A DNA stretch of 64,000 nucleotides from Peptococcaceae bacterium. Lineage in GTDB: Bacteria; Bacillota; Peptococcia; Peptococcales; Peptococcaceae. Every line of letters starts with the position of its first letter. The stretch's first letter is position 1. Under the pieces are notes generated by a model. The model had not been told where the DNA came from. It made no database searches and worked only from the letters and a program-made list of their open reading frames with translations. Position numbers and translations under genes: made by a program. Location of the stretch: contig JAFQEO010000036.1 in assembly GCA_017399005.1 (NCBI GenBank), positions 1 through 64,000 on the forward strand, read 5' to 3'. Shown here piece by piece: positions 32,047-63,855 of this stretch.

Positions 32047-32955
32047 TTATTCGCCCATCATACCGGACATAATCAGTTCCATCTCACTAGGTTCTCTATC
32101 GTTTACATCTTTTAATCCCAGGAAACGAGCTGCATTATCATAGTATACTTTTTCCATAACATCTGGGCGGAAACCAGCTTTTTCATAGAAATCTACACAA
32201 TGGAACAGAGAATTCAGTGGATAAGAGGACCCGAAGCAAATCTGGTCTGGACAAATGGTGTTCGCAGCATCTACATAGTCTCTCCAGCCAGGCAGACCAC
32301 ACATGTAATGGTCAGCAACGATAAACAGGTTCGGGAACCCTGCTGCCAGAGCCATTAAGGTATTATTGAAATATGGCCAGCCACCATGTGTTAATGCGAT
32401 TTTAATTTTCGGGAATGTTGTCAGGATTTTTGCCAGAGATTTTGGATTTCTTGCCTCAACATCGCCAAAGCATGGGGAACCATAGGTAAAGGTAATAGGA
32501 ATATCATTCTTTTCACACATTTCATAGATTGGGAAAATTCTTTCATCATCATAGTACATGTAAGAATCTTCGTGACCTGCTGGCGGGCAATCAGGTTCAA
32601 TGTTAACTGCAGTGAAAGGACCGTTTAATACATATTTGTCAATTTCTTTTTTTGCTGCTTCCACATCAAACAGGTCGATACCCATAGCACCGTAGAATTT
32701 GTCGCCGTATTTATTCAATAATTCAGCACCGGATTCATTAACAGTTTCAATACCACTTTTACGTAAGCATACAAAGCCTTGCATATCCAGTGTTTCCATG
32801 TCTTTCAACAGCAGCTCCATGCTCTTTTCTTTTGCAGATTGATCCAGATAACCGCCGCCGAATTTTTTCGCAAATTCGCCCATTCTAGAACCATAGTACC
32901 ATAAGCCTCTAATATGGCCGTAAGGTGGTCTTAAACGCATGTCGATCTTTTTCAT
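32047..32955 (-). CDS. Amidohydrolase-fold (amidohydrolase_2) protein lacking the HxH metal motif
   Basis: A 302-residue TIM-barrel protein of the amidohydrolase_2 group (relatives include ACMSD and gamma-resorcylate decarboxylases). The first strand, which normally reads DxHxH, here reads DMRLRP, so both metal-binding His are Arg (residues 7 and 9). The strand-5 His is missing (ITFTYGSP), and the final Asp of FGSDYP is Ser (FGSSYPL). The strand-6 His is kept (THGGWPY). The family end NAARFLGLK is present. The BMC-encoded protein at 51842 shows the same pattern, so these form one RxR subfamily. It is the third gene of the DASS transporter-flavoprotein-amidohydrolase operon. A normal metal-dependent hydrolase reaction is unlikely; the true reaction is unknown. 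Confidence 0.8.
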   Translation of the reverse strand: MKKIDMRLRPPYGHIRGLWYYGSRMGEFAKKFGGGYLDQSAKEKSMELLLKDMETLDMQGFVCLRKSGIETVNESGAELLNKYGDKFYGAMGIDLFDVEAAKKEIDKYVLNGPFTAVNIEPDCPPAGHEDSYMYYDDERIFPIYEMCEKNDIPITFTYGSPCFGDVEARNPKSLAKILTTFPKIKIALTHGGWPYFNNTLMALAAGFPNLFIVADHYMCGLPGWRDYVDAANTICPDQICFGSSYPLNSLFHCVDFYEKAGFRPDVMEKVYYDNAARFLGLKDVNDREPSEMELIMSGMMGE

Positions 32956-33044
32956 AAAACTTCCTCCTTTATGTTTTATATAATTAATATATTTTTACAG
33001 CTTCAAGTTTTTATTTTGTTGGAGCCGTATTTAACAGTAGCTTA

Positions 33045-34028
33045 TTACCATTCAACGCCTTCGGTTAAATCATCAACAATTTCCTTGCAACTTCTTACAG
33101 CTTTAATACCATCAATCGCTGTACTTGTGCAATTCACACCATTTTCTAAATCTCCAAAGAGCTGGCCTGCACATAATCCGCCATGTTCATTCATATATTT
33201 AGCAACCGCCTCGCCGCCTTCGCCATTGATATGTGCATCAAATGCGCGTTTTGCTGCCGCTGTTGGCAGGCTGCGCCAGATATTTCCACCATCTTTGAAC
33301 TGCAGTAAATCACTAGCTTTGCTGTTTACAATCTGATCTTTGCAAGCCTGAGCTGCACGGCATTCTTTCGATGCAATAAATACAGTCCCGCAATAAACAC
33401 CTTCCGCCCCCAGTGCTTTCGCAGCTTTTGCTGTACGTTTGTCTACAATACCACCGGCAGCCATAACTGGAATGTTCACTGCATCAGCAATCATTGGAAC
33501 TACACTGAAGGTACCCATTACAGTATTTGAACCCGATACGCCACCGCCTTCATCCGCACCAGTTGCTACAATGATATCTGCACCAGCTTCTTCAATCATT
33601 TTAGAACCGATAACATTCGCATCAATTGCGCGGTACAAAACAGTTAAACCTTTTTCTTTTAATCCGCGAATTACACCTGCTTCATATGCGGGATCAAAAC
33701 CAAACCCTAACACAAAGATATTTTTCATACCTTCTTCCAAAATTACATTCAACAGTGGTTCTCCAAATACATCACCAGGCATCGGCATCATGTATGTCAC
33801 TGCAAATGGTTTATCTGTTAATGCACGCGTTTTTTTGATTTCTGCACGCATCCTTTCCGCCGTTTCAATCGGATCCGGAGTCATTTCTGTCTGTCCTGCA
33901 TTGAAACCTAAAATCCCCATGCCGCCTGCATTAGACACTGCTGCCGCAAGTTCTGCCGATGTAATCCAGGTCATAGAACCTTGTACAACCGGTTTTTCAA
34001 TTCCTAAAATTTCACAAACTCTGTTCAT
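33045..34028 (-). CDS. Nitronate monooxygenase-like / FabK-like FMN protein without the usual His
   Basis: A 327-residue FMN TIM-barrel of the NMO/2-nitropropane dioxygenase/FabK superfamily: KPVVQGSMTWITSAELAAAVS, NAGGMGILGF, IPVMAAGGIVDKRTAKAA and GAEGVYCGTVFIAS (phosphate binding) are all typical. Active NMO and FabK enzymes carry His in a GxEAGGHxG-like loop; here the loop is GADEGGGVSG with no His, so the classical base is absent. The start at 34028 follows GGAGGAGG by 7 bases. It sits between a DASS transporter gene and the RxR amidohydrolase gene in one operon. The activity is probably a redox step on a small organic acid, as inference only. Confidence 0.8.
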   Translation of the reverse strand: MNRVCEILGIEKPVVQGSMTWITSAELAAAVSNAGGMGILGFNAGQTEMTPDPIETAERMRAEIKKTRALTDKPFAVTYMMPMPGDVFGEPLLNVILEEGMKNIFVLGFGFDPAYEAGVIRGLKEKGLTVLYRAIDANVIGSKMIEEAGADIIVATGADEGGGVSGSNTVMGTFSVVPMIADAVNIPVMAAGGIVDKRTAKAAKALGAEGVYCGTVFIASKECRAAQACKDQIVNSKASDLLQFKDGGNIWRSLPTAAAKRAFDAHINGEGGEAVAKYMNEHGGLCAGQLFGDLENGVNCTSTAIDGIKAVRSCKEIVDDLTEGVEW

Positions 34029-34105
34029 ACGTCTTCCTCCTCCAGGAAAATACTTTATAATCATTTTTTAATCGCAAATTTCAAAATCCTATTATTTTTC
34101 AGTTC

Positions 34106-35581
34106 CTAAAATACAATCGATGCAATTGGAACCATAACCACTGCCATACATATCAATCCAACGAATACGCATGAAAATGCCATTTTAAACAAATCGGATT
34201 TTTCACATCGTGATGTATTACCAAACATCAGCGCACTCTGAGTCGATGCCGCCGGAGTCCCGAAACTGGTCATCAGTGCTGCCGAGATTGCAATCGTAAT
34301 AACAACCGGGCTACCACCTAATTCAAGTGCAATCTGTGCAAATACTGGAATAAAAATTAACCCTAATACCATATTGTGCAGGAACTGCGTTAAAAGACCC
34401 AGAATAACTGCGATTAGAATAGTTGTAGGCACAAATCCCATACCGCTTACAATCGGCATAATCAATTCTACAGCCGTGGCTGTAACGCCAGCTTCTTCGG
34501 TTTCCATCATATTGATTAACGGGAAACACATCGCACACATGATAATCAAATTCCACTGTGTTGATTTTTTCATTAACTTGTTGAGGTCATACTGGCCTTC
34601 GCCTGTTTTCTTATCGCGCATAAAATGCACAATCAGAAGCATTACTACGATAATCCCTGTAGCAGACAGCGTGTTCAGTTGCGCTATTAGCGGGAACGTT
34701 GCAGGCAGGAAGTTTGGAGCCATCAGAAGCACGATGAACAGTGCCATAACAATACCAGCCTGTTTCTGTTCTGGATTCATTTTTTCAGAACGAATATCCG
34801 CATAAAGGTCTTCTTTGTTTTCGATTTTGCTCACATCTAGACGTAAGATAAAGCGCCCCATCGCCAGATAAAGAATAATTGATGCGATTGTGAAGATAAA
34901 GAATACAACACACCATAAACCGATATTACCTGCTACACCTACTGCATCGGTCATGGCCGCCAGGAATACCAACCCCATAATCTGCCACGGAGCGGCAATA
35001 CAGCCGTAACTTGCAGCCATCGTAATACCAACAATCATATAAGTAATCCATTTATTTTTGTCTGGAATACCAACTTTTTCAGCAATTTTGAATACAATAC
35101 TCCACATCAGAATCATCGCCGGGATAATCTGTGCAAATGTACTGAAGAAAAATGCTGCAAACATTAACACACCACAGAATATCCACGGATGACCAACATT
35201 GATTTTTCGTGCTACGAACCAGTTTGCCAGATACTGATTCAGGCCACTGTCTTCAAAATATTGCGCCAGCGCCAATACCACAACCATCATCAGAATATTC
35301 TGGTTCCCAATCCCCTGCGCACAAATGGTTGCCCAAGTTACATCTGGAACAAAAAGAATCGTTACTAACAACGCCGCCAAACTCGGATTTAGAAAATCGA
35401 TAAACATCCAGCCCCATAAGAGCCCCAGAAAAATACCAAAAATCTGCATCCCGTACGGTGTCATACTTCCTACTGTTGGAAGATATTTAAAAAATAGCAT
35501 ACACCCTAAACAAATAAGCCAGTGAATAAAAAACATCATCTTATTTTTTGAAGCACTATCGCTTGAAGTGTGACTACTCAT
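34106..35581 (-). CDS. DASS (SLC13) family anion/dicarboxylate transporter, copy 1
   Basis: A 491-residue membrane protein with about 12 helices and the DASS layout of two inverted halves with re-entrant loops (TFAQIIPAMILMWS in the first; ALMTSFGTPAASTQSALMFG in the second, the SNT-type motif region). DASS proteins move dicarboxylates, citrate, sulfate or related anions, usually with Na+. It is first in an operon with the flavoprotein and the RxR amidohydrolase and so probably brings in their substrate, an organic anion. AAGGAGGT lies before the ATG. Confidence 0.85.
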   Translation of the reverse strand: MSSHTSSDSASKNKMMFFIHWLICLGCMLFFKYLPTVGSMTPYGMQIFGIFLGLLWGWMFIDFLNPSLAALLVTILFVPDVTWATICAQGIGNQNILMMVVVLALAQYFEDSGLNQYLANWFVARKINVGHPWIFCGVLMFAAFFFSTFAQIIPAMILMWSIVFKIAEKVGIPDKNKWITYMIVGITMAASYGCIAAPWQIMGLVFLAAMTDAVGVAGNIGLWCVVFFIFTIASIILYLAMGRFILRLDVSKIENKEDLYADIRSEKMNPEQKQAGIVMALFIVLLMAPNFLPATFPLIAQLNTLSATGIIVVMLLIVHFMRDKKTGEGQYDLNKLMKKSTQWNLIIMCAMCFPLINMMETEEAGVTATAVELIMPIVSGMGFVPTTILIAVILGLLTQFLHNMVLGLIFIPVFAQIALELGGSPVVITIAISAALMTSFGTPAASTQSALMFGNTSRCEKSDLFKMAFSCVFVGLICMAVVMVPIASIVF

Positions 35582-51841: not shown

Positions 51842-52795
51842 TTAAACTTCCAGGCCCAGTACTTTCGCAGCGTTTTTCCACATGATTTTTTCGTATGTTT
51901 CTTCGTCAAAACCATAGGTAGCATATTTTTCTGCTGCTTCCAGGTATGGAACAAATGGGCACGCACTTGCGAACATCATCTGATCTTTCAGGATAGTTTT
52001 AGCAGCATCCAGGAAGTCGCTGGAACCTGGGTATTCTTCGTATTCGGAGATTTCCAGATATACGTTTTTGTTACGGAATGTAACACCGATCATTTCATCA
52101 ACGAATGGCCATGCACCGTGGCTGATGATGATTTTCAGATCTGGGAAGTCTTTTGCTACGATATCGATTTCACTTGGGTGAGTGTAATCCATAACAGTGT
52201 TAGCTGTGTAACGAGCTGGACCAGCTGTGATAACGATTGGAATGTTCAGTTCGCAGCATTTTGCGTATACTGGGTACATTTTAGCATCGCTGCATTTCAG
52301 CTGAGCGTACATTGGGTCCATAGCTGCACCGTGGAAGTCGCCGCTTTTAACAGCTGCATCCAGGTCACGGATTGCCTGCATACCTTTGTGAGGGTCTACA
52401 CCGTAGTAGCCCAGGAAGATTTCAGGGCAAGCCTGTACGAACTGACGGATTTCCGGGTTGTTTGGTTTGTAACCGTAAGTTGTTTCAGCGTCACGACCAA
52501 CGATAACAGCTTTCATTACGTTGTGAGCTTTCAGGTCTTCGATGATTTCTGGCATAGTTCTTGCTCTGCTGTAGAATTCATCAATATCAACACCGTTAGC
52601 AATCAGACCAGCGCGGAAAATTGGGCTTTCTGCGATACCGCCGATAATGCTTTTGGTGTTTGGACGATAACGGAAGTCAATGATTGGGCCTTTTACTTTG
52701 CCTGCAGGTGCAGCTGGTTTGGAAGCTGCTTTTTCAGCCTGTGCTCTCTGCAGAGCTTTCTGTCTTAATTCTTCCTGAAGTTTCTGTAAATCCAT
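51842..52795 (-). CDS. BMC-targeted amidohydrolase-fold protein with RxR in place of HxH
   Basis: A 317-residue protein in two parts. Residues 1-24 (starting MDLQKLQEELRQKAL) form an amphipathic helix with Leu at 3, 6, 10 and 15, followed by an Ala/Pro linker to about residue 33: the usual build of a BMC encapsulation peptide. The rest is an amidohydrolase_2 TIM barrel. Canonical metal ligands are mostly lost: DFRYRP (Arg 42 and 44 for HxH), IVITAG (Thr 190 for His) and FASACP (Ala 278 for Asp); only His 226 in SHGAWPF remains. It is the last gene of the BMC operon and the best candidate for the core enzyme. A metal-independent lyase- or hydrolase-type reaction giving an aldehyde is inference. 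AAGGAGAG 7 bases before ATG 52795 decides the start. Confidence 0.82.
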   Translation of the reverse strand: MDLQKLQEELRQKALQRAQAEKAASKPAAPAGKVKGPIIDFRYRPNTKSIIGGIAESPIFRAGLIANGVDIDEFYSRARTMPEIIEDLKAHNVMKAVIVGRDAETTYGYKPNNPEIRQFVQACPEIFLGYYGVDPHKGMQAIRDLDAAVKSGDFHGAAMDPMYAQLKCSDAKMYPVYAKCCELNIPIVITAGPARYTANTVMDYTHPSEIDIVAKDFPDLKIIISHGAWPFVDEMIGVTFRNKNVYLEISEYEEYPGSSDFLDAAKTILKDQMMFASACPFVPYLEAAEKYATYGFDEETYEKIMWKNAAKVLGLEV

Positions 52796-52839: not shown

Positions 52840-53379
52840 TTATAATAATGCATCAAACAGCTGATTTGCCGGTCTTGGGATGATGCTTGTGTTAACCAGT
52901 AATTCAGCATTTTCTTTTGCTGCAGATACAGCAGCACGAACTGCGCCTACATCACCAGTTAAGGTTACGAAACCTTTACCGCCGATTGCATAACCGATAC
53001 GAACTTCGATTAATGTTACATCAGCAGCTTTAGCAGCTACGTCGGCAGCAGTGATTGCAGATGCGATGGAGTAGAATTCCAGAACGCCCAGAGCGTCACG
53101 ATCGTTCACCTGATTGGTCATAGAAATCGCTGGAATTACCTGTTCGTTAATGTTAGGGATGAGCAATGTATCTACTACATAAGCCCCCCCGATTTTCATG
53201 CCTTCAGTCATGGAGGCTCTTACATCAGCAGTATCACCGCCGATAATGATGATGTATTTACCTGGACAAACTGTGGAAGCACGTACAATGTCTACCTGTG
53301 CGGCTTTCACCATAAAATCGCAGGTTTCAATGCCGCGGGCAATACTGGACAGTTCAATCATACCTAATGCAGTTCCCAT
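52840..53379 (-). CDS. BMC-T shell trimer, PduT type with Fe-S pore Cys
   Basis: A 179-residue protein with two BMC domains in tandem (residues about 1-90 and 91-179), the trimeric shell type. It resembles PduT: the loop VCPGKY places Cys at residue 38, the same position as the [4Fe-4S] pore cysteine of PduT. With the PduS-like protein encoded next to it, it probably passes electrons through the shell. AAGGAGG 9 bases before ATG 53379 sets the start. The spacing to the amidohydrolase gene is 44 bases. Confidence 0.9.
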   Translation of the reverse strand: MGTALGMIELSSIARGIETCDFMVKAAQVDIVRASTVCPGKYIIIIGGDTADVRASMTEGMKIGGAYVVDTLLIPNINEQVIPAISMTNQVNDRDALGVLEFYSIASAITAADVAAKAADVTLIEVRIGYAIGGKGFVTLTGDVGAVRAAVSAAKENAELLVNTSIIPRPANQLFDALL

Positions 53380-53383
53380 AGCA

Positions 53384-54736
53384 TTATACCTCCTTTCTGA
53401 TACGAGCGCCGTTTTCATCGATGGAAACAATTACGCCATTCATACTTGCGTGAATGTTAGCGGATAAGCCTTCAGCAGCTGCGCCTAACACTTCACCTTT
53501 TACTACGCGGTCGCCAGCAGCTTTTGCTGGAACAGCTGGTTTACCGATATGCTGACGGAATGGAACATATACGGTTTCTGGTGCTAATTCAATGCATTCA
53601 TGTGCATGCAGACCATCGAAATCAGCCAGACCCAGACGAGCAATTAAGCGGTGGGTTGGAATACGATGATTGTCGATATCAGCTTCTGCAACTGGTTCCA
53701 TGTTACGTGGAACCTGAATACCTTTTGCACGTAACTGACCTTTGATATAGCCGTTTACTTTACGTGGGGACAGACCCATTGGGCATGCGAACATTTCGCA
53801 GGCACCACAGTCACAGCAGTTCATAGCATCCCCGAAGGTTGCTAAGTATTCATCATTGTCAGTAATCTGATCTTCACGCCAGATGTTTCTCATCACAACG
53901 TTTGGACGAATCTGATGACCAATCATGTGACGTGGGCACAGGTCGGTACACATTTTGCACTGGATGCAAGCTGCACGAGCCTGGCGTTTGATTGTTTCCA
54001 TTGGCAGAGTTGCACGCTGGAACAGATAATGATCTTTTGGTAACACGATTACATTACCAGTTGTTTTTGTAACAACCGCATCTGCGATTGCTTTTTCATC
54101 CAGAGCGATTTTACCCATCATAGGACCGCCCAGGATAATGCCGTAATCACGAATGGTTGGGTTTGCAGCTGCAATACATTCTGTGATCGGAGTACCGATT
54201 GGCACTTTCAGCATAATTGGTTCTTTTACTTCCCCTACTACAGACAGATATTTTTCTGTAACAGGTGCGCCATGCAGCGCTTCGTACAGGTTCAGCATAG
54301 TACCTACGTTATCTACCACAGCACCTACGTCCAGTGGCAGACCGCGTTCTGGCACGCTTCTGCCGGTAACCATCTGTACCATTGTCTGCTCATCGCCAGC
54401 CGGATAGAAGGTTGGCATTTCGAAAATTTCGATATCAGCATTTGCACGGTTGATAGCAGCTTTTAAAGAAGCAATTTCTTCTTTATATTTGCCTTTCAGT
54501 GCAATGACTTTACGGCTAACGCCGAGATGAGCACCAGTTGCATTAACAGCTTCAACAATCTGGTCTGCGAATGTACGGCACAGATATTTATCGGTTTCGA
54601 TCAGTGGCTCACATTCAGCTGCGTTTACGATAAAGCATTCTGCTTTCGCATTCAGTTTTACGTGAGTCGGGAAGCCAGCACCACCAGCCCCTACGATACC
54701 TGCATCTTTTACTGTATCAATAAAACTCAACGTCAT
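53384..54736 (-). CDS. pduS: PduS-like flavin/iron-sulfur electron carrier
   Basis: About 450 residues: RnfC-type NADH/FMN domain (VGAGGAGFPTHVKL, AAECEPLIETDK, FYPAGDEQTMV), a SLBB-like part, two Fe-S motifs (CIQCKMCTDLCPRHM and CCDCGACEMFACPMG), and a C-terminal lipoyl-like barrel. In the Pdu system PduS reduces cobalamin with NADH and interacts with the shell protein PduT. In this locus, which lacks a B12 enzyme and an alcohol dehydrogenase, it may instead reoxidise NADH and send electrons out via PduT. ATG 54736 is used; no strong ribosome site is visible. Confidence 0.88.
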   Translation of the reverse strand: MTLSFIDTVKDAGIVGAGGAGFPTHVKLNAKAECFIVNAAECEPLIETDKYLCRTFADQIVEAVNATGAHLGVSRKVIALKGKYKEEIASLKAAINRANADIEIFEMPTFYPAGDEQTMVQMVTGRSVPERGLPLDVGAVVDNVGTMLNLYEALHGAPVTEKYLSVVGEVKEPIMLKVPIGTPITECIAAANPTIRDYGIILGGPMMGKIALDEKAIADAVVTKTTGNVIVLPKDHYLFQRATLPMETIKRQARAACIQCKMCTDLCPRHMIGHQIRPNVVMRNIWREDQITDNDEYLATFGDAMNCCDCGACEMFACPMGLSPRKVNGYIKGQLRAKGIQVPRNMEPVAEADIDNHRIPTHRLIARLGLADFDGLHAHECIELAPETVYVPFRQHIGKPAVPAKAAGDRVVKGEVLGAAAEGLSANIHASMNGVIVSIDENGARIRKEV

Positions 54737-54798
54737 ACACCACACTTTTCTAAAGAAAATCTATGGAATTTTCCTACAATTTCAAATATTTTTCAGAC

Positions 54799-55083
54799 TT
54801 ACAGCAAGTCTGCATCAAATTCTTTGTCATCCACAATACCTACAACAGTTGCATCCACTGCTGTATCCATGGAGCCGGCTGCCACTCGCGCAGTACTGCC
54901 TACAGCGATGATAACCGTTTCACCTGTACCTGCGCCGATGATATCGGCTGCAACAACAGGTTCCCCGACTGGTTTGTCATTGTCCAGGATGTTAATCGGC
55001 TGAACAATCAGCAGTTTCAGACCGGTAAGGGATGTTTCTTTTCTGGTAGCCCAGATATTGCCGATTACTTTTGCAATTTGCAC
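54799..55083 (-). CDS. BMC-P shell pentamer, EutN/CcmL family
   Basis: A 94-residue beta-barrel protein of the EutN/PduN/CcmL family, which caps the 12 vertices of the shell. Marks are QIAKVIGNIWATRKETSL, KLLIVQPI, and the VAADIIGAGTGETVIIAVGS core. Translation starts at a GTG (55083) with AGAGGAGGA upstream. One copy only in the locus. Confidence 0.92.
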   Translation of the reverse strand: MQIAKVIGNIWATRKETSLTGLKLLIVQPINILDNDKPVGEPVVAADIIGAGTGETVIIAVGSTARVAAGSMDTAVDATVVGIVDDKEFDADLL

Positions 55084-55108: not shown

Positions 55109-55864
55109 TTATTCCCGAACCAGCTCTACATTATGGTTCTGCGCATATTCTTTGGCCAGATCAGTTACAATGGCTTTTGCACCAACAACAATCCGGGTTG
55201 CACCAGCCTGGTATACATCAGCAACACTGCGTTCACTAACCAGATGATTATCCAGTTTTACAGTTTTGTCAGCGGCAGCCGGTGCCGGTTTACTCGAACA
55301 GGATGCCGTGCAGGCACCGCCGTTCACCAGAATATCTTCCGCTTTATCCGGACAGGTAATCATTAAACCGGATTCCTCCAGCAGCCCCAGCTGTGCGCGA
55401 AACATTTTGTAATATGGTTTCGCAGCGGTTTTGCGGTAGTCATACAGTTCAATCTGATCCTGCATCAGATAAACCGGTTTTCCTAATAACAGGGCCTGCG
55501 ACACAATTTTTGTATATGGTGTGTCACAAATCCCGCTGGCGATTTTCGCCAGAGATTCATTGGTCAAATCATGGAGTACCACGGCTTCGCAGCTGGCAAC
55601 ATCAACATCATAGCCGCATTTCTGCGCACATTTGATGCGATATTTTTCCTTTACTCTGGCACTTTCCAGCAGAGTAAAGCGACATGGTGGCAGCGCGCTG
55701 TCCTGAGTCAGGCCGATTAAAATCGGTTTCTGAGACTCTGGTGCATCTGCAGTACAAAAGCCGGTGGTACTACAAGCTGTTGCTGGTTTCTGCGCAGCTT
55801 CCTGCTCCGCCAGTGCTGCAAGCACACGATTTGCAAGTTCGTCTACCAACGCATCGAAGTCCAA
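55109..55864 (-). CDS. BMC-associated flavoprotein with N-terminal targeting-like helix
   Basis: A 251-residue protein. The N-terminus (DFDALVDELANRVLAALAE) is an amphipathic helix followed by a low-complexity stretch, as in cargo proteins. The middle resembles the flavoprotein (PPC decarboxylase/DpaB-like) fold: SLAKIASGICDTPYTKIV and ALLLGKPVYLM. A Cys-rich piece (GACTASCSSK) separates it from a short C-terminal domain. Related flavoproteins occur in other BMC loci, where their role is not settled. TTG start at 55864 with AAGGGGA. It probably binds FMN and may serve PduS; this is inference. Confidence 0.7.
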   Translation of the reverse strand: MDFDALVDELANRVLAALAEQEAAQKPATACSTTGFCTADAPESQKPILIGLTQDSALPPCRFTLLESARVKEKYRIKCAQKCGYDVDVASCEAVVLHDLTNESLAKIASGICDTPYTKIVSQALLLGKPVYLMQDQIELYDYRKTAAKPYYKMFRAQLGLLEESGLMITCPDKAEDILVNGGACTASCSSKPAPAAADKTVKLDNHLVSERSVADVYQAGATRIVVGAKAIVTDLAKEYAQNHNVELVRE

Positions 55865-55899: not shown

Positions 55900-56733
55900 T
55901 TATAAAACGGTTCCGTCCAGTTTGCAGTTCATTGCAATCCCGGTCGGTGTTACCAGAAATGGATTTGCCGGTTTAATCGTAGTGATACCGGTTTCTTTCT
56001 CGAAAATTTTCTCGATGCCGGTCAGACAGCAGGTACCGCCGCAGAGATACAGGGTATCCACTTCGTCTTTTTTCACATAACGGTTTACAATTGATGCCAT
56101 TTTTTCAAGTACAGGTTTCACAATCGGGAAAATTTCTTTATGCCGTTTGTAATTCTGCTTGATTTCCTCTGCTTCAGCGAAGGAAATTTTATAATTTCCC
56201 GCCAGCACCAGAGATAAATGAGTACCGCCTGTCGGTTCATCCTCAATCTGAACAACTTCACCGTTTTTCAGAATTGCCAGCCCGGTAGTACCACCACCGA
56301 TATCCACAACCACACCGTCTTCAATCTGATAGATTGCATTCGCTGCGCTTGGTTCATCGAGAATATTGGTAACTTCCAGACCAGCCCCCTCTGCAATGTA
56401 CTGATGTGTTTTTACGCTGTCTTCGGTTCCAGCCGGCATTGCGATGGCACAGTATTGTAACTCCATGCCAATACGCGCTTCCAGCTTTTCCTTCAGTGTG
56501 CGTACAATCTGCAGTGCGCCGACATAATCAACTACTACACCGTCTTTCAGTACACTGGCTGCCTGTTTTTCACAGGCAATCGGGTTATCTTCCTCGTCAA
56601 GTACAACCAGAACGATATAGGCAGTCCCCAAATCCACACCAACTTTCAGCTTGTCGCTTACCGGTTTAAATGTTTCTGTTTCAGACTTCACTACCCGTTC
56701 CATATAGGCATTTACGCGCTCCACATCCATCAT
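55900..56733 (-). CDS. eutJ: EutJ-type actin/Hsp70-fold protein
   Basis: A 277-residue ATPase-fold protein: KVGVDLGTAYIVLVVLDE (phosphate 1), VVDIGGGTTGLAIL (phosphate 2), NILDEPSAANAIY, and LYLCGGTCCLTGIEKIF (adenosine). EutJ is found in Eut and related BMC loci and is thought to act as a chaperone or reactivation factor for encapsulated enzymes. It has only the nucleotide-binding fold, with no substrate-binding domain. AAGGAG lies 10 bases before the ATG. Confidence 0.88.
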   Translation of the reverse strand: MMDVERVNAYMERVVKSETETFKPVSDKLKVGVDLGTAYIVLVVLDEEDNPIACEKQAASVLKDGVVVDYVGALQIVRTLKEKLEARIGMELQYCAIAMPAGTEDSVKTHQYIAEGAGLEVTNILDEPSAANAIYQIEDGVVVDIGGGTTGLAILKNGEVVQIEDEPTGGTHLSLVLAGNYKISFAEAEEIKQNYKRHKEIFPIVKPVLEKMASIVNRYVKKDEVDTLYLCGGTCCLTGIEKIFEKETGITTIKPANPFLVTPTGIAMNCKLDGTVL

Positions 56734-56759: not shown

Positions 56760-57386
56760 TTATTTAATGATGCGGCCCAGAGGCATAGCGCCTAATTCGG
56801 TTGCATTACCTTCATCAGTATCGATATGCATACGGCAACGGAAATTGTCGTTTACACGAACGATTACATCTTTAAATACAACTGGGCGTTCGCCCCCGAT
56901 TTCAACGCTTACATGCTGACTGTCAGACAGCCCCATTCTGCGTGCATCGGCTGTTGTCATATGAATGTGGCAGTGAGCCACGATTGTGCCTTCTGGAATT
57001 GTTACACTGCCTTTTGGGCCTTCCAGTGTGATAGAACCGGAGCCAGCTACATCGCCGGATTCCCGCAATGGAGCTTTCACCCCTAAACCTCTGGCATCAC
57101 TCTTGGACAATTCCACCTGAGTTGCTTTACGCACTGGACCCAGTACAGAAACGTTTTCTTTTCTGCCTTTCGGACCAACCAGGGTAACACGCTGTTCAGA
57201 CAGATACTGACCTGGCTGAGACAGTTCACGTTTTGGAGTCAGAGTAGCACCAGGGCCAAATAAGGTTTCTAAGTCTTTCTGGCTCAGATGTACGTGACGT
57301 GCCGAAACTTCAACCTGTACATATTCTTTGCTGATGGTATCCACTACAGCATTTACAACCTGATCGATCATGCTTGTTTCGCTCAT
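56760..57386 (-). CDS. pduL: Phosphotransacylase PduL
   Basis: A 208-residue BMC-type phosphate acyltransferase: VEVSARHVHLSQKDL (metal His) and AHCHIHMTTADARRMGL (metal His), GPVRKATQVELSKSDARGLG, MHIDTDEGNA. It converts acyl-CoA and phosphate to acyl-phosphate and recycles CoA inside the shell. The N-terminal helix MIDQVVNAVVDTISKEY ahead of the barrel looks like an encapsulation peptide. It overlaps the EutT-like gene by 4 bases (ATGA). No acetate kinase is in the locus. Confidence 0.92.
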   Translation of the reverse strand: MSETSMIDQVVNAVVDTISKEYVQVEVSARHVHLSQKDLETLFGPGATLTPKRELSQPGQYLSEQRVTLVGPKGRKENVSVLGPVRKATQVELSKSDARGLGVKAPLRESGDVAGSGSITLEGPKGSVTIPEGTIVAHCHIHMTTADARRMGLSDSQHVSVEIGGERPVVFKDVIVRVNDNFRCRMHIDTDEGNATELGAMPLGRIIK

Positions 57387-58168
57387 TTATATTCACCTGC
57401 CAAATGCATAAACATCATCACCCGCAAAGCACTGGACAGACTGTTCAGTACTTCCAGGATGTCATTTCTTGTATATCGGTTTCCTTCATGAAGCGCTGTG
57501 ATAGCAGCTGTTTCCACTTCACGCATCTGCGTATACAGCTGATTCAGCTGTGCATATTCCAGACCTCTGGTATACTCCGGTACACCAGCTTCTTCCACCG
57601 GATAGAACTGCATCGGGTTCTGCGCCCGTTCCTGCACTTCTGCCGGGGTCAGACCGATGATATGAGTAACCACCAGCGGCTGATTCAGCACATGACTCCG
57701 CAGAATATTCCAAAGAATTGTTAATATATTATTTAAATCGTCAAGCAGTCTCTGGCTTCCGCCGCGTTCTGCAATTACGGCCTGCATCAGAATAATCTGC
57801 GACTGCAGACTTTCTGTTTTTCCGCGGAACAGAATCTGCGGATGATCTTTGGCAACCAGCACATCACCGTATAAAACAGTCATGTGTACCGGTTTTTCAA
57901 AGTAGCAGGCACCTGTGTTGTAATCTACATAATTAGCGCCTTCAGCTTTCACTGGTGCAGCAACAGAAGGCATAGGGGGAACTTCTGCTGCGCTGACGGA
58001 TTCCGGTTTGTCACCGGCATTGTTTCCGTTCGTAATTTTAATTTGGCGTCCCATCAGATATTCACGAGCGGCCGGAGAGAGGATATACCCTGGTTCTACT
58101 ACATAAAACTCAGGCTGTTCGCTGCGCGGTATTTCCGCTCTCACTTTTGCTTCCGTAATTACCTTCAA
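57383..58168 (-). CDS. EutT-like cobalamin adenosyltransferase family protein, metal motif lost
   Basis: A 261-residue EutT-type protein: N-terminal VITEAKVRAEIPRSE and LSPAAREYLMGRQIKI, a helical core (VAKDHPQILFRGKTESLQSQI), the VVTHIIGLT segment, and the C-terminal NDILEVLNSLSSALRVMM. EutT makes adenosylcobalamin for ethanolamine lyase. In the E. coli protein a CCxxC motif binds metal; the matching place here (YNTGACYFEK) has one Cys only. No B12 enzyme is encoded nearby, so activity is doubtful. TTG start at 58168 with AAGGGGGTG. It overlaps pduL. Confidence 0.75.
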   Translation of the reverse strand: MKVITEAKVRAEIPRSEQPEFYVVEPGYILSPAAREYLMGRQIKITNGNNAGDKPESVSAAEVPPMPSVAAPVKAEGANYVDYNTGACYFEKPVHMTVLYGDVLVAKDHPQILFRGKTESLQSQIILMQAVIAERGGSQRLLDDLNNILTILWNILRSHVLNQPLVVTHIIGLTPAEVQERAQNPMQFYPVEEAGVPEYTRGLEYAQLNQLYTQMREVETAAITALHEGNRYTRNDILEVLNSLSSALRVMMFMHLAGEYK

Positions 58169-58204: not shown

Positions 58205-58486
58205 TTATTTTAATTTAGGCAGAATGGATTCTACTTCTTCATGTGGTCTTGGGACTACATGAACAGCCAGTAAACCACCGATTCTTTCTGCAGCAGCAGC
58301 ACCAGCATCTACGGATGCTTTAACTGCACCTACATCACCGCGTACCATTACGCAGATTAAACCGCCGCCTACCTGTACTTTACCGATCAGGGTAACGTTT
58401 GCAGCTTTTACCATTGCATCGGCAGCTTCGATAGAAGGTACTAAACCTTTTGTTTCAACCATACCTAAAGCCTGCATTACAGCCAT
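58205..58486 (-). CDS. BMC-H shell hexamer, copy 1
   Basis: A 93-residue BMC-domain protein (PduA/EutM type): [56 protein letters not shown]. Hexamers tile the shell facets, with the pore lined by KVQVGGG. It differs from copy 2 at two residues (Ser for Ala in KASVDAG; Val for Ile in HVVPRP). AAGGAGTG before ATG 58486 sets the start. Confidence 0.95.
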
Positions 58487-58565
58487 TGATATACACTCCT
58501 TCAATTTCGGTTTCACCGGGCTTCACAGCCAGCTGTGAGCACCAGCACCGGGATTTTTTCTAAAA

Positions 58566-58847
58566 TTATTTTAATTTAGGCAGAATGGATTCTACTTCTT
58601 CATGTGGTCTTGGGATTACATGAACAGCCAGTAAACCACCGATTCTTTCTGCAGCAGCAGCACCAGCGTCAACAGCAGCTTTAACAGCGCCTACATCACC
58701 GCGTACCATCACGCAGATTAAACCGCCGCCTACCTGTACTTTACCGATCAGGGTAACGTTTGCAGCTTTTACCATTGCATCGGCAGCTTCGATAGAAGGT
58801 ACTAAACCTTTTGTTTCAACCATACCTAAAGCCTGCATTACAGCCAT
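58566..58847 (-). CDS. BMC-H shell hexamer, copy 2
   Basis: A 93-residue BMC-H protein, nearly identical to copy 1. Its DNA is a mosaic: a 59-base tract (58651-58709) is identical to copy 3 (58996-59054) but differs from copy 1 at 7 positions, while the rest matches copy 1 almost perfectly. This points to gene conversion. Same pore sequence as copy 1. AAGGAGTG lies before the ATG. Confidence 0.95.
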
Positions 58848-58910
58848 CTATATACACTCCTTTTAGAATTCTTTAAAAATAAATCGTGTTATATTCTGAT
58901 TCTAATGCAA

Positions 58911-59192
58911 TTAGCCCAGAGTAGGCAGAATTTCTTCTACTTCGTCGTGTGGACGAGGGATTACATGAACGAATACCAGTTCACCAACACGTTCAGCAGC
59001 AGCAGCACCAGCGTCAACAGCAGCTTTAACAGCGCCTACATCACCGCGTACCATAACGTCTACCAGACCAGCACCGATGTGTTCTTTACCAATCAGAGTA
59101 ACGTTAGCAGCTTTTACCATAGCGTCAGCTGCTTCGATTGCAGCAACAACACCTTTTGTTTCGATCATACCTAAAGCCTGCATTGTAGCCAT
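58911..59192 (-). CDS. BMC-H shell hexamer, copy 3 (distinct pore)
   Basis: A 93-residue BMC-H protein: [56 protein letters not shown]. The pore loop is KEHIGAG, compared with KVQVGGG in copies 1 and 2, so it may pass different solutes. AGGAGG before the ATG. Confidence 0.95.
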
Positions 59193-59261: not shown

Positions 59262-60782
59262 TTACGCGTTCTGTAATTTTTCGATAATTTTGCGAACCAG
59301 TACATCCATCTGATCATCGCTTAAGCCAGCGGATGCAGGAGCAGCAGCTGGTGCAGGAGCAGCGTCAGCGTTTTTCATTACGCAGATACCGCTGGAGCAG
59401 TCTGGCAGAGAAGCACGGATATCTTCGATTTCCAGCATACCAATTGCAACATAACGCAGGTTTACTAAATCCAGAGGACCAACGTTTTCAGATGTTGCAG
59501 AACCGCCGATTGCACCGCAACCCAGTGTTAAGGAAGGTAACAGACCGGTTGTACCACCGATACCGCCCAGAGCACTTGGTGTGTTTACACACAGACGGGA
59601 TACAGGAACACGTTTTGCAAAGTATTCAACCATATCCTGGTTGTTGGTGTGCATTGCAAATGTGTGACCTTTCCCTTCGTAGCGCAGGATTGTGCATACG
59701 ATGTCACAGATTTCTTTGTAGTCTTTACCTGTGTAGAAGCCCAGGATTGGAGCCAGTTTTTCGTTGGAGTAGGTATGACCACGGCCAACACCATCTTCTT
59801 TTGCAACCAGTACGCGAGCGCCAGCTGGAACTTTCAGGCCAGCCAGATTAGCGATGGTCTGTACGCTTTTACCTACGATCTGTGGGTTCATTGTGCCGTT
59901 TGCACGCAGAATGAATTTGCTCAGTTTTGCACTTTCTTCGTCATTCAGGAAGTATGCGCCCTGTTTTTCGAATTCAGCACGAACTGCTGGAGCGTAGTCT
60001 TCTTCACAGATGATAGACTGTTCGGAAGCACAGATGGTACCGTTGTCAAATGTTTTAGAATCCAGAATACGTTTAACAGCCAGTGCCAGGTCAGCGCTCT
60101 TATCGATGAATGCAGGACCGTTACCAGGGCCTACGCCGATAGCAGGGTTACCGGAGGAGTAAGCTGCACGAACCATTGCAGAACCACCAGTAGCCAGAAT
60201 CATAGCAGTATCAGGATGCTGCATCAGAGTTTCAGTAGCCTGTCTGGTTGGGATGCTGATGCAGGAAACCAGATCTGGGTTACCGCCAACTTCGGAAATT
60301 GCCTGACGGATAACTTTTACTGTTTCCTGGATGCAGCGCAGAGCAGATGGATGTGGAGAGAATACAATTGCGTTACCAGCTTTGATAGCTACTTCTGCTT
60401 TAAACAGAGTTGTGGATGTTGGGTTGGTGGATGGAATTACACCTGCAACAACGCCCATTGGGGATGCAATTGTAATCAGACCTTTTTCTTCGTCTCTGTT
60501 GATTACGCCGATGGTTTTCATATCTTTGATAGCCTGCCAAACATTGTAGCTACCGAATACGTTTTTCACTACTTTGTCTGCAACGATACCGAAACCTGTA
60601 TCTTCGTTAGCCATTACAGCTAAGCGAGCAGCGTTACGAACACCAGCATCAGCGATGGATTTTACGATTTTGTCTACTTCTTCCTGGGATTTTTCAGCCA
60701 GTTCAGCCTGTGCTGCTTTTGCTGCAGCCATTAAGTCACGTACTTCCTGTACGGACAGCAGGTCTTTGTCAAAAAGTTGCAT
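59262..60782 (-). CDS. CoA-acylating aldehyde dehydrogenase with C-terminal encapsulation peptide
   Basis: A 506-residue EutE/PduP-type enzyme that oxidises an aldehyde to acyl-CoA with NAD+. Catalytic Cys 251 is in [11 protein letters not shown]; the cofactor region is [15 protein letters not shown] and [11 protein letters not shown]. The C-terminus carries an Ala/Pro linker and an amphipathic helix ([16 protein letters not shown]) in the last 21 residues, the placement common in glycyl-radical-type BMC loci. Its aldehyde substrate is unknown here because no classical producer is encoded. Second gene of the BMC operon. Confidence 0.93.
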
Positions 60783-60833: not shown

Positions 60834-61424
60834 TTATTTCTGTTTTAAGAATTCACAGATAGAAGCAACTAAATCTTCTTTTTTGCCAAATCTGATTTCT
60901 TTCCGTGTCATGTTGGTGATATTTAAATCACGAGCCACACTGCGTAATTCTTTTACAGTCATGGCATTCAGCACTTCCGGAGTGAGGGTTTCTGCCTGAG
61001 TTTTCAGTTCAGCGTTCTGTTCGTCATCCGCTTCTTCAGTTTCCCCGGCAGGATCTTCTTCGTCGGATTCTGCTTTTGGCTCCTCTTTCTCAGCTTCTCC
61101 ATCCTTTTCAGTCGGTTCTGCCGGAGTCTGCGGTACCTCAGCTTTTACTTTTTTTTTTGGAACAACCAGTGTACAGTCTACTTCGTCATGAGGACGGGCA
61201 ATTACATGTGTATACAGTACTTCCCCAACCTGACTTGCCGCTGCAGCAGCTGCATCAACCGCCGCCTGTACCGCAGCAACATCACCAGTAATGGATAAGG
61301 AAACAATCCCTTTATCGATTTTGTGAACCTGCTCGAACGATACGTCAGAAGTTTTTAATGCGGTATCCAGTGCTACAACTGTAGGACAATAACCTAAAAG
61401 TTCAATTAAACCTAACGCTTTCAT
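60834..61424 (-). CDS. BMC-H shell protein fused to SAP/Rho-N-like domain
   Basis: A 196-residue protein: BMC domain (1-88; LIELLGYCPTVVALDTALK, IDKGIVSLSITGDVAAV), an acidic Glu/Asp/Pro/Lys linker (about 89-148), and a C-terminal helical domain (149-196; LNAMTVKELRSVARDLNI, then a KKEDLVASICEFL helix) resembling SAP/Rho-N/HeH folds that often bind nucleic acid. EutK also has a C-terminal DNA-binding-like domain. The pore loop HKIDKGI differs from the other shell hexamers. First gene of the operon, with AGGAGGTGA before the ATG. The tail may sit in the lumen or recruit something; unknown. Confidence 0.85.
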   Translation of the reverse strand: MKALGLIELLGYCPTVVALDTALKTSDVSFEQVHKIDKGIVSLSITGDVAAVQAAVDAAAAAASQVGEVLYTHVIARPHDEVDCTLVVPKKKVKAEVPQTPAEPTEKDGEAEKEEPKAESDEEDPAGETEEADDEQNAELKTQAETLTPEVLNAMTVKELRSVARDLNITNMTRKEIRFGKKEDLVASICEFLKQK

Positions 61425-62034: not shown

Positions 62035-62937
62035 TTATAAATATTCGCTGAATACATGGATGAATTTACGAGCAAGCGCCAGCTGATTTTTATCAATATT
62101 TTTATTGATAACTGCGTAAATCGCAAAGGTTGCCTGTTTATCTTTTACCGGAATATGCACCAGTGACGGGAACACATTTCGCTCCAGATACGGCGGAAAA
62201 CTGTACATAATTGCTGTATCGTTGCGGAGCATTTCTTCACATAGTTTATAGTTGTTCGTGGATAACGCAACTTTCGTGTGCCCCAGCTTCTGGAATGTAT
62301 GAACCCCTCCGGTACCGCCAATTTCATATACAACAAATGGATAATGTGCGATAGTGCTGATTGACAGCGATTTATGGTCAGCCAGCGGATGGCCGGCAGA
62401 AACTGCAATATAAATCGGATACTGTTTCAACGGAATTAACTCAACCTCATCCGGAATATTTTCAAAAAATTCTGTAATCAGCGGAGAAACACAAATCATA
62501 CCCAGTTCCTGATGTTCTACACAGCGCTCAATGATACTGTCACGATACCGTTCTGCCGTAAACAGATTTACCTCCGGATAATGGGAGATAAAATCTTTAA
62601 ATGCCACTGGAAGAACAGAGATATTCAGCATTGGCGACAGATTTACATTCAGGTTGCCACGCAGTGTTGTATCTGTACTTTGCTTTGCTTTCAGTTCCCG
62701 CTCCAGTTTTGCGAGGCGACTGATAACATCCTGTGCTGCACTGAGAACTTTTTCACCGTCGCTTGTTAAGCGAATCCCTTTTTTCGTGCGGTCAAGCAAA
62801 TGACAGTTCATCTCATTTTCCAGACTTTTTAACGATTTATTTAAACTCTGCTGAGTTACATGCAGTTTTTTTGAGGCAGAATTGATGGAACCCGACTTGG
62901 CTACCTCCACTAGCGCTGCCAGCTGATCAATACGCAT
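62035..62937 (-). CDS. LysR-type regulator of the BMC locus
   Basis: A 300-residue LysR protein: MRIDQLAALVEVAKSGSIN, VTQQSLNKSLKSLENEM (DNA-binding helix), then the effector domain. It sits between the BMC operon (same direction, downstream of it by position but transcribed separately with its own terminator) and the divergent permease gene. AAAGGAGGA is before the ATG. It is the likely local switch for both. The effector would be the BMC substrate or a related metabolite. Confidence 0.88.
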   Translation of the reverse strand: MRIDQLAALVEVAKSGSINSASKKLHVTQQSLNKSLKSLENEMNCHLLDRTKKGIRLTSDGEKVLSAAQDVISRLAKLERELKAKQSTDTTLRGNLNVNLSPMLNISVLPVAFKDFISHYPEVNLFTAERYRDSIIERCVEHQELGMICVSPLITEFFENIPDEVELIPLKQYPIYIAVSAGHPLADHKSLSISTIAHYPFVVYEIGGTGGVHTFQKLGHTKVALSTNNYKLCEEMLRNDTAIMYSFPPYLERNVFPSLVHIPVKDKQATFAIYAVINKNIDKNQLALARKFIHVFSEYL

Positions 62938-63135: not shown

Positions 63136-63855
63136 ATGTCTATTGTAATTTTACTTCTTGTTACATTTATAGCTACCGCTATTCATACATCCACCAGTTT
63201 TGGTTTCGGTATTATCACGATTATGGTATTTCCGCTTCTGATGCCAACCTATTCCTGTGCCACTGTCTGCGTTACGGTGCTCACTCTGGCATTTACTGCA
63301 ATCAATGCAATCAGGATGCGCCATGATATTGTATGGAAATGGATTGTACCAACATTTATCAGTTACTTCATCGCCAGTTTTTTTGCCGTACGAGCGCTTA
63401 GTATTGTAGATGATGGATTTATCAAAAAAATCCTTGGTGTAGTATTAATCTGTCTGAGCCTGTACTTTATCTTTTTCCAGAAAAGAATCAAAATGCAGCC
63501 AACAAAACGTAATGGTTTTATTGCCGGAGCATTAAGTGGCACATTGGAAAGTCTCTTCTGTGTGGGCGGCCCACCGATTGTACTCTATCTGTTGACTGTC
63601 AGCAACGATGTCCGTCGTTATACCGCCAGTGTCCAGGCATGGTTTGCAGTTACCGAAATATTTCTGCTTTACATGCGCTATATTAATGGTTTAATTACAC
63701 CGGAAGCAGTTCACTATTCCGCGATCGGGCTTCTAGCCATTCCGCCTGGAATTTATCTAGGCAGCAAACTGTTGAATCACATGAATCCTCAACGATTGAA
63801 AAATGTAGTTTATACTATCATGCTGATTTACGGTTCTATTCTGATTTTACGGTAA
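63136..63855 (+). CDS. TauE/SafE family membrane permease
   Basis: A 239-residue membrane protein with about eight helices. N-terminal STSFGFGIITIMVFPLL and the central AGALSGTLESLFCVGGPPIVLYL repeat are the two family signatures. Members export sulfite or sulfoacetate or move other organic anions. It is divergent from the LysR gene beside the BMC operon, so it may handle the substrate or a by-product. If a sulfonate were used, sulfite export would fit; this is only a lead. AAGGAGACG precedes the ATG. Confidence 0.85.
   Translation: MSIVILLLVTFIATAIHTSTSFGFGIITIMVFPLLMPTYSCATVCVTVLTLAFTAINAIRMRHDIVWKWIVPTFISYFIASFFAVRALSIVDDGFIKKILGVVLICLSLYFIFFQKRIKMQPTKRNGFIAGALSGTLESLFCVGGPPIVLYLLTVSNDVRRYTASVQAWFAVTEIFLLYMRYINGLITPEAVHYSAIGLLAIPPGIYLGSKLLNHMNPQRLKNVVYTIMLIYGSILILR

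Follow-up and report, generated by a model that had tools for sequence, protein, structure and literature searches.

We report here an amidohydrolase-fold protein, AHx, encoded at the end of a bacterial microcompartment (BMC) operon, in which the metal site has almost certainly been lost and, judging from the aligned homologues, a conserved alternative site stands in its place. This arginine-rich (Arg3) protein without a metal site is a near-constant companion of isethionate sulfite-lyases across two phyla. We propose, as a reading whose chances we judge to be evenly balanced, that AHx is a BMC-targeted, metal-free accessory enzyme of isethionate (C2-sulfonate) breakdown whose reaction would be the cleavage of an adduct. 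The fold and the kind of compartment are both known; what is new is the variant of that fold and, plausibly, the reaction.

A conserved arginine site at the former metal-ligand positions

AHx is encoded by a single open reading frame of 317 amino acids at 51842-52795 on the minus strand of the window (the whole 64,000-nucleotide stretch of DNA analysed), with AAGGAG directly 5' of the ATG. The product contains an Amidohydro_2 domain (PF04909, E 3.9e-27, 96.2 bits against a cut-off of 26.4), and direct reading confirmed the codons and residues R42, R44, T190, H226 and A278. In a profile-profile alignment of 14 close AHx homologues with 14 HxH members (probability 100, E 7.6e-50), R42-Y43-R44 (52664-52672; this and the other residue coordinates are on the minus strand) replaces the metal-binding HxH that follows strand 1, T190 (52226-52228) occupies the position of the third, metal-binding His, and A278 (51962-51964) that of the late metal-binding Asp. 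H226 (52118-52120) is the sole canonical ligand kept, and both it and the arginine pair were also assigned by family comparison. The HxH, His, His, Asp set of Amidohydro_2 is therefore absent, with four of the five positions differing, in agreement with the initial annotation, which had placed these residues at the five ligand positions with one ligand left. Catalysis by AHx, as read from these substitutions, is probably metal-free.

The homologue alignment adds R101 (52493-52495), a third arginine at the barrel mouth following strand 2 that is the hallmark of the RxR clade, D160 (52316-52318), a conserved Asp/Glu following strand 4, and E251-Y252-E253 (52037-52045) following strand 7, which is invariant within the lyase-linked clade. 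R42, R44, R101, D160, H226 and E251-Y252-E253 are kept in all 14 close homologues. In a comparison of 99 family members, RxR is accompanied by R101, an acid at 160, H226 and mostly Tyr252, and the HxH proteins show His190 and Asp278; a maximum-likelihood tree separates 59 RxR/Arg3 proteins, PDB 3irs among them, from the rest by a branch with 100/99 support. AHx has R42, R44, R101, D160 and H226 and lies in this clade. The separation of RxR from HxH members that the initial annotation had suggested looking for is thus seen, with one exception, L084, which combines RxR with His190 and Asp278 and is placed outside the Arg3 clade, so that RxR alone is not diagnostic. Because the substitutions in AHx are invariant in all 14 close homologues and RxR proteins group together in a single clade, they are far beyond chance; decay of a single gene is ruled out by their clade-wide occurrence, and a site first described as dismantled is instead a conserved replacement site across a large clade.

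The barrel had been thought intact, and an AF2 model of AHx (pLDDT 93.5) bears this out, with Foldseek returning 3irs as the top match followed by Amidohydro_2 metal-dependent decarboxylases and hydratases. The secondary structure of the model places all of the conserved residues after barrel strands 1, 2, 4, 6 and 7, consistent with the suggested location of the arginine pair at the barrel mouth. PDB 3irs/3k4w (BB4693 of Bordetella bronchiseptica, an uncharacterised TIM barrel) has the same fold (TM 0.81 on the target, 28% identity) and shares RxR, R101, an acid at 160, H226 and clade membership with AHx, although it lacks the targeting helix described below and has Glu at 160 and Met at 190. 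Gamma-resorcylate decarboxylase, ACMSD and LigJ share the barrel and the Pfam family, but bind metal through HxH, two His and Asp. The RxR trait is common to 3irs, the only close solved structure, and so is not BMC-specific; this departs from the initial view of it as peculiar to a BMC amidohydrolase, since most relatives lie outside BMCs and two paralogues in the window genome also share RxR. Its distribution in the sequences indicates that the trait was already present in the ancestor of a broad family to which 3irs/3k4w and these two paralogues belong. Taken together, these results make the Arg3 site an old alternative active site, whose three arginines would suit an anion and be ill-suited to a cation. 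The proposal that the arginine pair binds an anionic ligand gains support from the third invariant arginine and, by analogy, from the sulfonate gene neighbourhoods of the family. LigI lactonase is a metal-independent enzyme of the amidohydrolase superfamily that acts on an anionic substrate and keeps its His residues, and we found no close relationship between it and AHx. The novelty claimed for a metal-free reaction therefore does not extend to the superfamily, but within the Arg3 class, and in a BMC, such a reaction would be a first.

The two paralogues occupy different settings. One is encoded in the window (32047-32955, minus strand), has K at the R101 position, and has a LysR regulator on one side and on the other a FabK/nitronate-monooxygenase-like gene (33045-34064) followed by a DASS-type transporter (34106-35581); this locus (32047-35581) is possibly a separate organic-anion pathway. 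The other belongs to the lyase-linked clade (L004:9082-9924 on contig C35 of the window genome, G000; 46% identity), has no targeting helix, and stands alone beside trmD/rimM, where it is kept throughout the genus. A 3 Mb relative, G001, has at least 21 amidohydrolase-family matches, and those sampled are of the RxR type.

The microcompartment operon and probable targeting of AHx

AHx is the final gene of a BMC operon on the minus strand, the order of which is kept within the genus. The operon begins with a BMC-H domain protein carrying a C-terminal SAP/Rho_N-like domain (60834-61424, profile match) and an acetylating acetaldehyde dehydrogenase (59262-60782, TIGR02518 above cut-off), and continues with three BMC-H shell protein genes (open reading frames within 58205-59192, near-identical to each other and to shell proteins of other BMC loci). 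These are followed by a EutT-like cobalamin adenosyltransferase homologue (57383-58168, profile matches below cut-off), a PduL-type phosphotransacylase (56760-57386), a EutJ-like chaperone (55900-56733), a TIGR02536-like BMC-associated protein (55109-55864, below cut-off), a BMC-P (EutN/CcmL) shell protein (54799-55083), a PduS/RnfC-like electron-transfer protein (53384-54745) and, immediately upstream of AHx, a PduT-like BMC-T shell protein (52840-53430), all by profile matches. A LysR regulator (62035-62937, minus strand), 43% identical homologues of which flank lyase operons in two other genera of the family, and a TauE/SafE-family transporter of the sulfite exporter family (63136-63855, plus strand, profile match) are also present. 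In the BMC-H/SAP protein an acidic linker joins the two domains, and it is possible that this is a nucleic-acid-binding shell protein. The EutT-like protein sits in a BMC without a B12 enzyme, as does its counterpart in the IslA operon of Bilophila, and diverges faster than its neighbours (71-74% as against about 90% identity within the genus). Close relatives of the window genome are Peptococcaceae MAGs, including one from dairy cattle colon and one from water buffalo caecum.

Shell proteins, an acetylating aldehyde dehydrogenase and a phosphotransacylase (PTAC), as expected of an isethionate (IslA-type) BMC, are all present in the operon, and no signature enzyme or IslA-type glycyl radical enzyme was found within the BMC locus in the window. 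Among catalogued BMC types, the BUF locus with amidohydrolases and the xanthine BMC were also considered and set aside, since the AHx locus encodes an acetaldehyde dehydrogenase and its gene content differs from theirs. The operon for the isethionate BMC of Bilophila wadsworthia comprises IslAB, acetaldehyde dehydrogenase, Pta, EutN, PduS/PduT, EutT, whose role there is unclear, EutQ and 00649 (PMC8667426), the last being described as a 'hypothetical protein, predicted amidohydrolase' with no role proposed (PMC8667426). Common to the two operons are the shell types, the acetylating aldehyde dehydrogenase, PTAC, and the PduS-like, EutT-like and amidohydrolase-annotated genes; the window genome differs in having its lyase on another contig, EutJ, a SAP-domain BMC-H and the N-terminal extension of AHx, and EutQ was not found in its BMC operon. 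Bilophila 00649 is putatively an Arg3 protein.

Residues 1-26 of AHx (52718-52795, minus strand) form an N-terminal extension that is a probable encapsulation peptide, as judged from homologue comparison and from AF2, which predicts a helix at residues 2-24 and a linker; the same arrangement, an N-terminal helix (about 24 residues) with a linker, is seen in AHx proteins of the genus. Four BMC-linked homologues (L077, L078, L080 and L137) carry an extension at the C-terminus instead, as do L138 and L139, whose contigs stop just past the gene, and homologues without BMC genes have neither. The hydrophobic moments of the terminal helices are not clearly different from those of shuffled sequences. 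Gain of an extension at opposite ends of the protein argues for selection for encapsulation, and AHx is very probably BMC cargo.

Association with isethionate sulfite-lyases and other sulfur genes

In a panel of 398 genomes, the lyase is present in 10 of the 10 genomes with AHx, and AHx in 10 of 11 with the lyase (Fisher 4e-19); a second panel of 345 genomes from another phylum, centred on a Deltaproteobacteria record, gives 11 of 11 and 11 of 12 (Fisher 7e-20). The panel genomes are related to varying degrees, so these values overstate independence, yet the pairing covers two phyla, and all 21 genomes with a close AHx homologue have an IslA-type glycyl radical enzyme, usually less than 5 kb away. 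The distance between the two genes is 0.3-5.4 kb at 22 loci: nine other genomes of the same phylum have AHx 0.3-3.5 kb from the glycyl radical enzyme and its activase, and 13 loci in the second phylum pair the genes within 5.4 kb. In G447 and G421 they lie about 14 kb apart on the same contig. AHx is not indispensable, because two genomes with the lyase (G369 and G669) are without it. The best solved relatives of the paired enzyme are the isethionate sulfite-lyases 5ymr and 7kq3, and the partners include both isethionate-type active sites and a second type (Y188/I682). Most AHx orthologues are in operons without BMC genes. At three such loci a small protein recurs beside the lyase and AHx (L079:10268-10615, L081:17080-17430 and L082:17275-17616); it is DsrE/F-like by Pfam in L082 and the other two are similar in sequence.

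In the window genome the IslA-type lyase is on contig C22 rather than on the AHx contig, and its co-encapsulation with AHx is putative. The C22 lyase keeps the IslA active-site residues R189, Q193, C468, E470 and R678, which mutants of Bilophila IslA have shown to be essential, together with W374 and F682, and the genome also encodes dissimilatory sulfite reductase (DsrA, above cut-off). A second IslA-family glycyl radical enzyme (L099:8409-10910 on contig C15; 55% identity), with L188 and I682, is encoded beside TRAP transporter genes and perhaps serves another sulfonate. From the pairing, membership of AHx in an isethionate or sulfonate pathway is a conclusion we hold with strong confidence.

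More distant Arg3 genes adjoin that for the SsuD alkanesulfonate monooxygenase in Aliarcobacter, Azospirillum and Methylocystis. SsuD/MsuD operons are aerobic, lack a BMC and yield sulfite and an aldehyde, and some include an Arg3 amidohydrolase gene; many, such as that of E. coli, are presumably without one. A Methylobacterium bullatum operon encodes in order an MFS transporter, an Arg3 protein, the sulfite dehydrogenase SorA (676 bits against a cut-off of 600), a cytochrome and YeiH, so that between the uptake step and the oxidation of sulfite no enzyme other than the Arg3 protein is encoded. In M. nodulans, one Arg3 copy is beside SorA and TauE/SafE, and the other is beside formate dehydrogenase, which is consistent with a formaldehyde product. 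No such sulfur genes were seen at five annotated loci of homologues without Arg3. The Arg3 loci of Caballeronia, Hydrogenophaga and L083 show no sulfur link, and the class is therefore broader than one substrate. Two further operons (L164:1-10921 and L155:1-10828) combine succinate dehydrogenase-like and fumarase-like genes with an Arg3 amidohydrolase and TauE/SafE, with SorA also in L164, and possibly represent a sulfosuccinate route through hydroxysulfosuccinate.

A candidate reaction and its alternatives

Ordinary sulfonates resist simple hydrolysis, whereas the adducts that aldehydes form with bisulfite (alpha-hydroxysulfonates) break down into their two components, the aldehyde and sulfite. 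Where one metal-free enzyme alone accounts for sulfite release, an adduct lyase would thus be the simplest reading, and the gene neighbourhoods lead us to suggest, tentatively and at somewhat less than even likelihood, that AHx is a carbonyl-bisulfite adduct lyase. In the pathway as we envisage it, IslA would convert isethionate to acetaldehyde and sulfite, with acetaldehyde passing to acetyl-CoA and acetyl phosphate, and sulfite to DsrAB. Because acetaldehyde and sulfite are produced together in a closed space, 1-hydroxyethanesulfonate should form within the shell from acetaldehyde and bisulfite. The three arginines of AHx would hold the sulfonate of this adduct while an acid, His or Tyr takes the proton of the hydroxyl, and cleavage of the C-S bond would return acetaldehyde and sulfite to acetaldehyde dehydrogenase and sulfite reductase. 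Relatives of AHx could perform the same cleavage on the formaldehyde-bisulfite adduct (hydroxymethanesulfonate) and similar adducts, hydroxymethanesulfonate being the likely substrate in methylotrophs. A literature search found no paper on an enzyme cleaving bisulfite adducts or hydroxymethanesulfonate. On the analogy between these settings, a new enzyme class of metal-free alpha-hydroxysulfonate lyases with an amidohydrolase fold and an Arg3 site, with BMC and methylotroph members, is an idea we put forward with the same reserve.

A possible, though rather unlikely, alternative is that AHx acts upstream, as a metal-free lyase, hydratase, isomerase or decarboxylase that acts on another sulfonate, or on a sulfonated aldehyde (sulfoacetaldehyde or sulfolactaldehyde, for example), to supply the glycyl radical enzyme with its substrate. 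The structural neighbours of AHx are decarboxylases and hydratases, DASS and TRAP anion transporters recur close to family members, and the AHx operon of G001 also contains an iron alcohol dehydrogenase and a GarR-like reductase that resemble sulfonate aldehyde pathways. However, the isethionate pathway is already complete without AHx, Arg3 genes also occur beside SsuD and in a pared-down SorA operon, settings that give no sign of such an intermediate, and the lyases paired with AHx fall into at least two types, which adduct cleavage by AHx would accommodate.

We consider it improbable that AHx is a pseudoenzyme serving the BMC as a scaffold, as an assembly factor or by binding sulfite or a sulfonate. 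The loss of canonical catalytic ligands and the terminal targeting extension of BMC members would fit such a role, but the majority of orthologues are in BMC-free operons, the invariant residues gather at the barrel mouth as in an active site, and the M. bullatum operon offers no other sulfite-releasing enzyme. Continued dependence on metal through other residues is less probable again: H226 and the acid at 160 are conserved and E251/E253 are invariant in the lyase-linked clade, yet of these residues only H226 and the acid at 160 persist throughout the Arg3 clade, ringed by the three arginines, and E251/E253 are replaced by Met, Leu and others in relatives having the same Arg3 core. An ethanolamine or B12-dependent compartment, with AHx unrelated to sulfonates, is very improbable despite the EutT-, EutJ- and PduS-like genes in the cluster, given that EutB of the ethanolamine ammonia-lyase EutBC has no match in the window genome (an E. 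coli control was positive), a result on which the ethanolamine (EUT) type was rejected, that an IslA-type lyase and DsrA are present, that the IslA BMC operon of Bilophila has a EutT homologue too (PMC8667426), and that AHx orthologues track the lyase.

Isethionate sulfite-lyase compartments supply hydrogen sulfide production by gut bacteria. Genes of the Bilophila isethionate pathway are important for gut colonisation (PMC12125255), and isethionate cross-feeding has been reported in the rumen (PMC13219744), in keeping with the recovery of close relatives from ruminants. If adduct cleavage is indeed the reaction of AHx, a very large fold family would gain a new chemistry, and it would account for how a toxic aldehyde and sulfite, co-produced in a closed shell, stay available. 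It would also predict bacterial use of hydroxymethanesulfonate, an adduct present in atmospheric particles (PMC9227704), on which the methylotroph members of the class would live.
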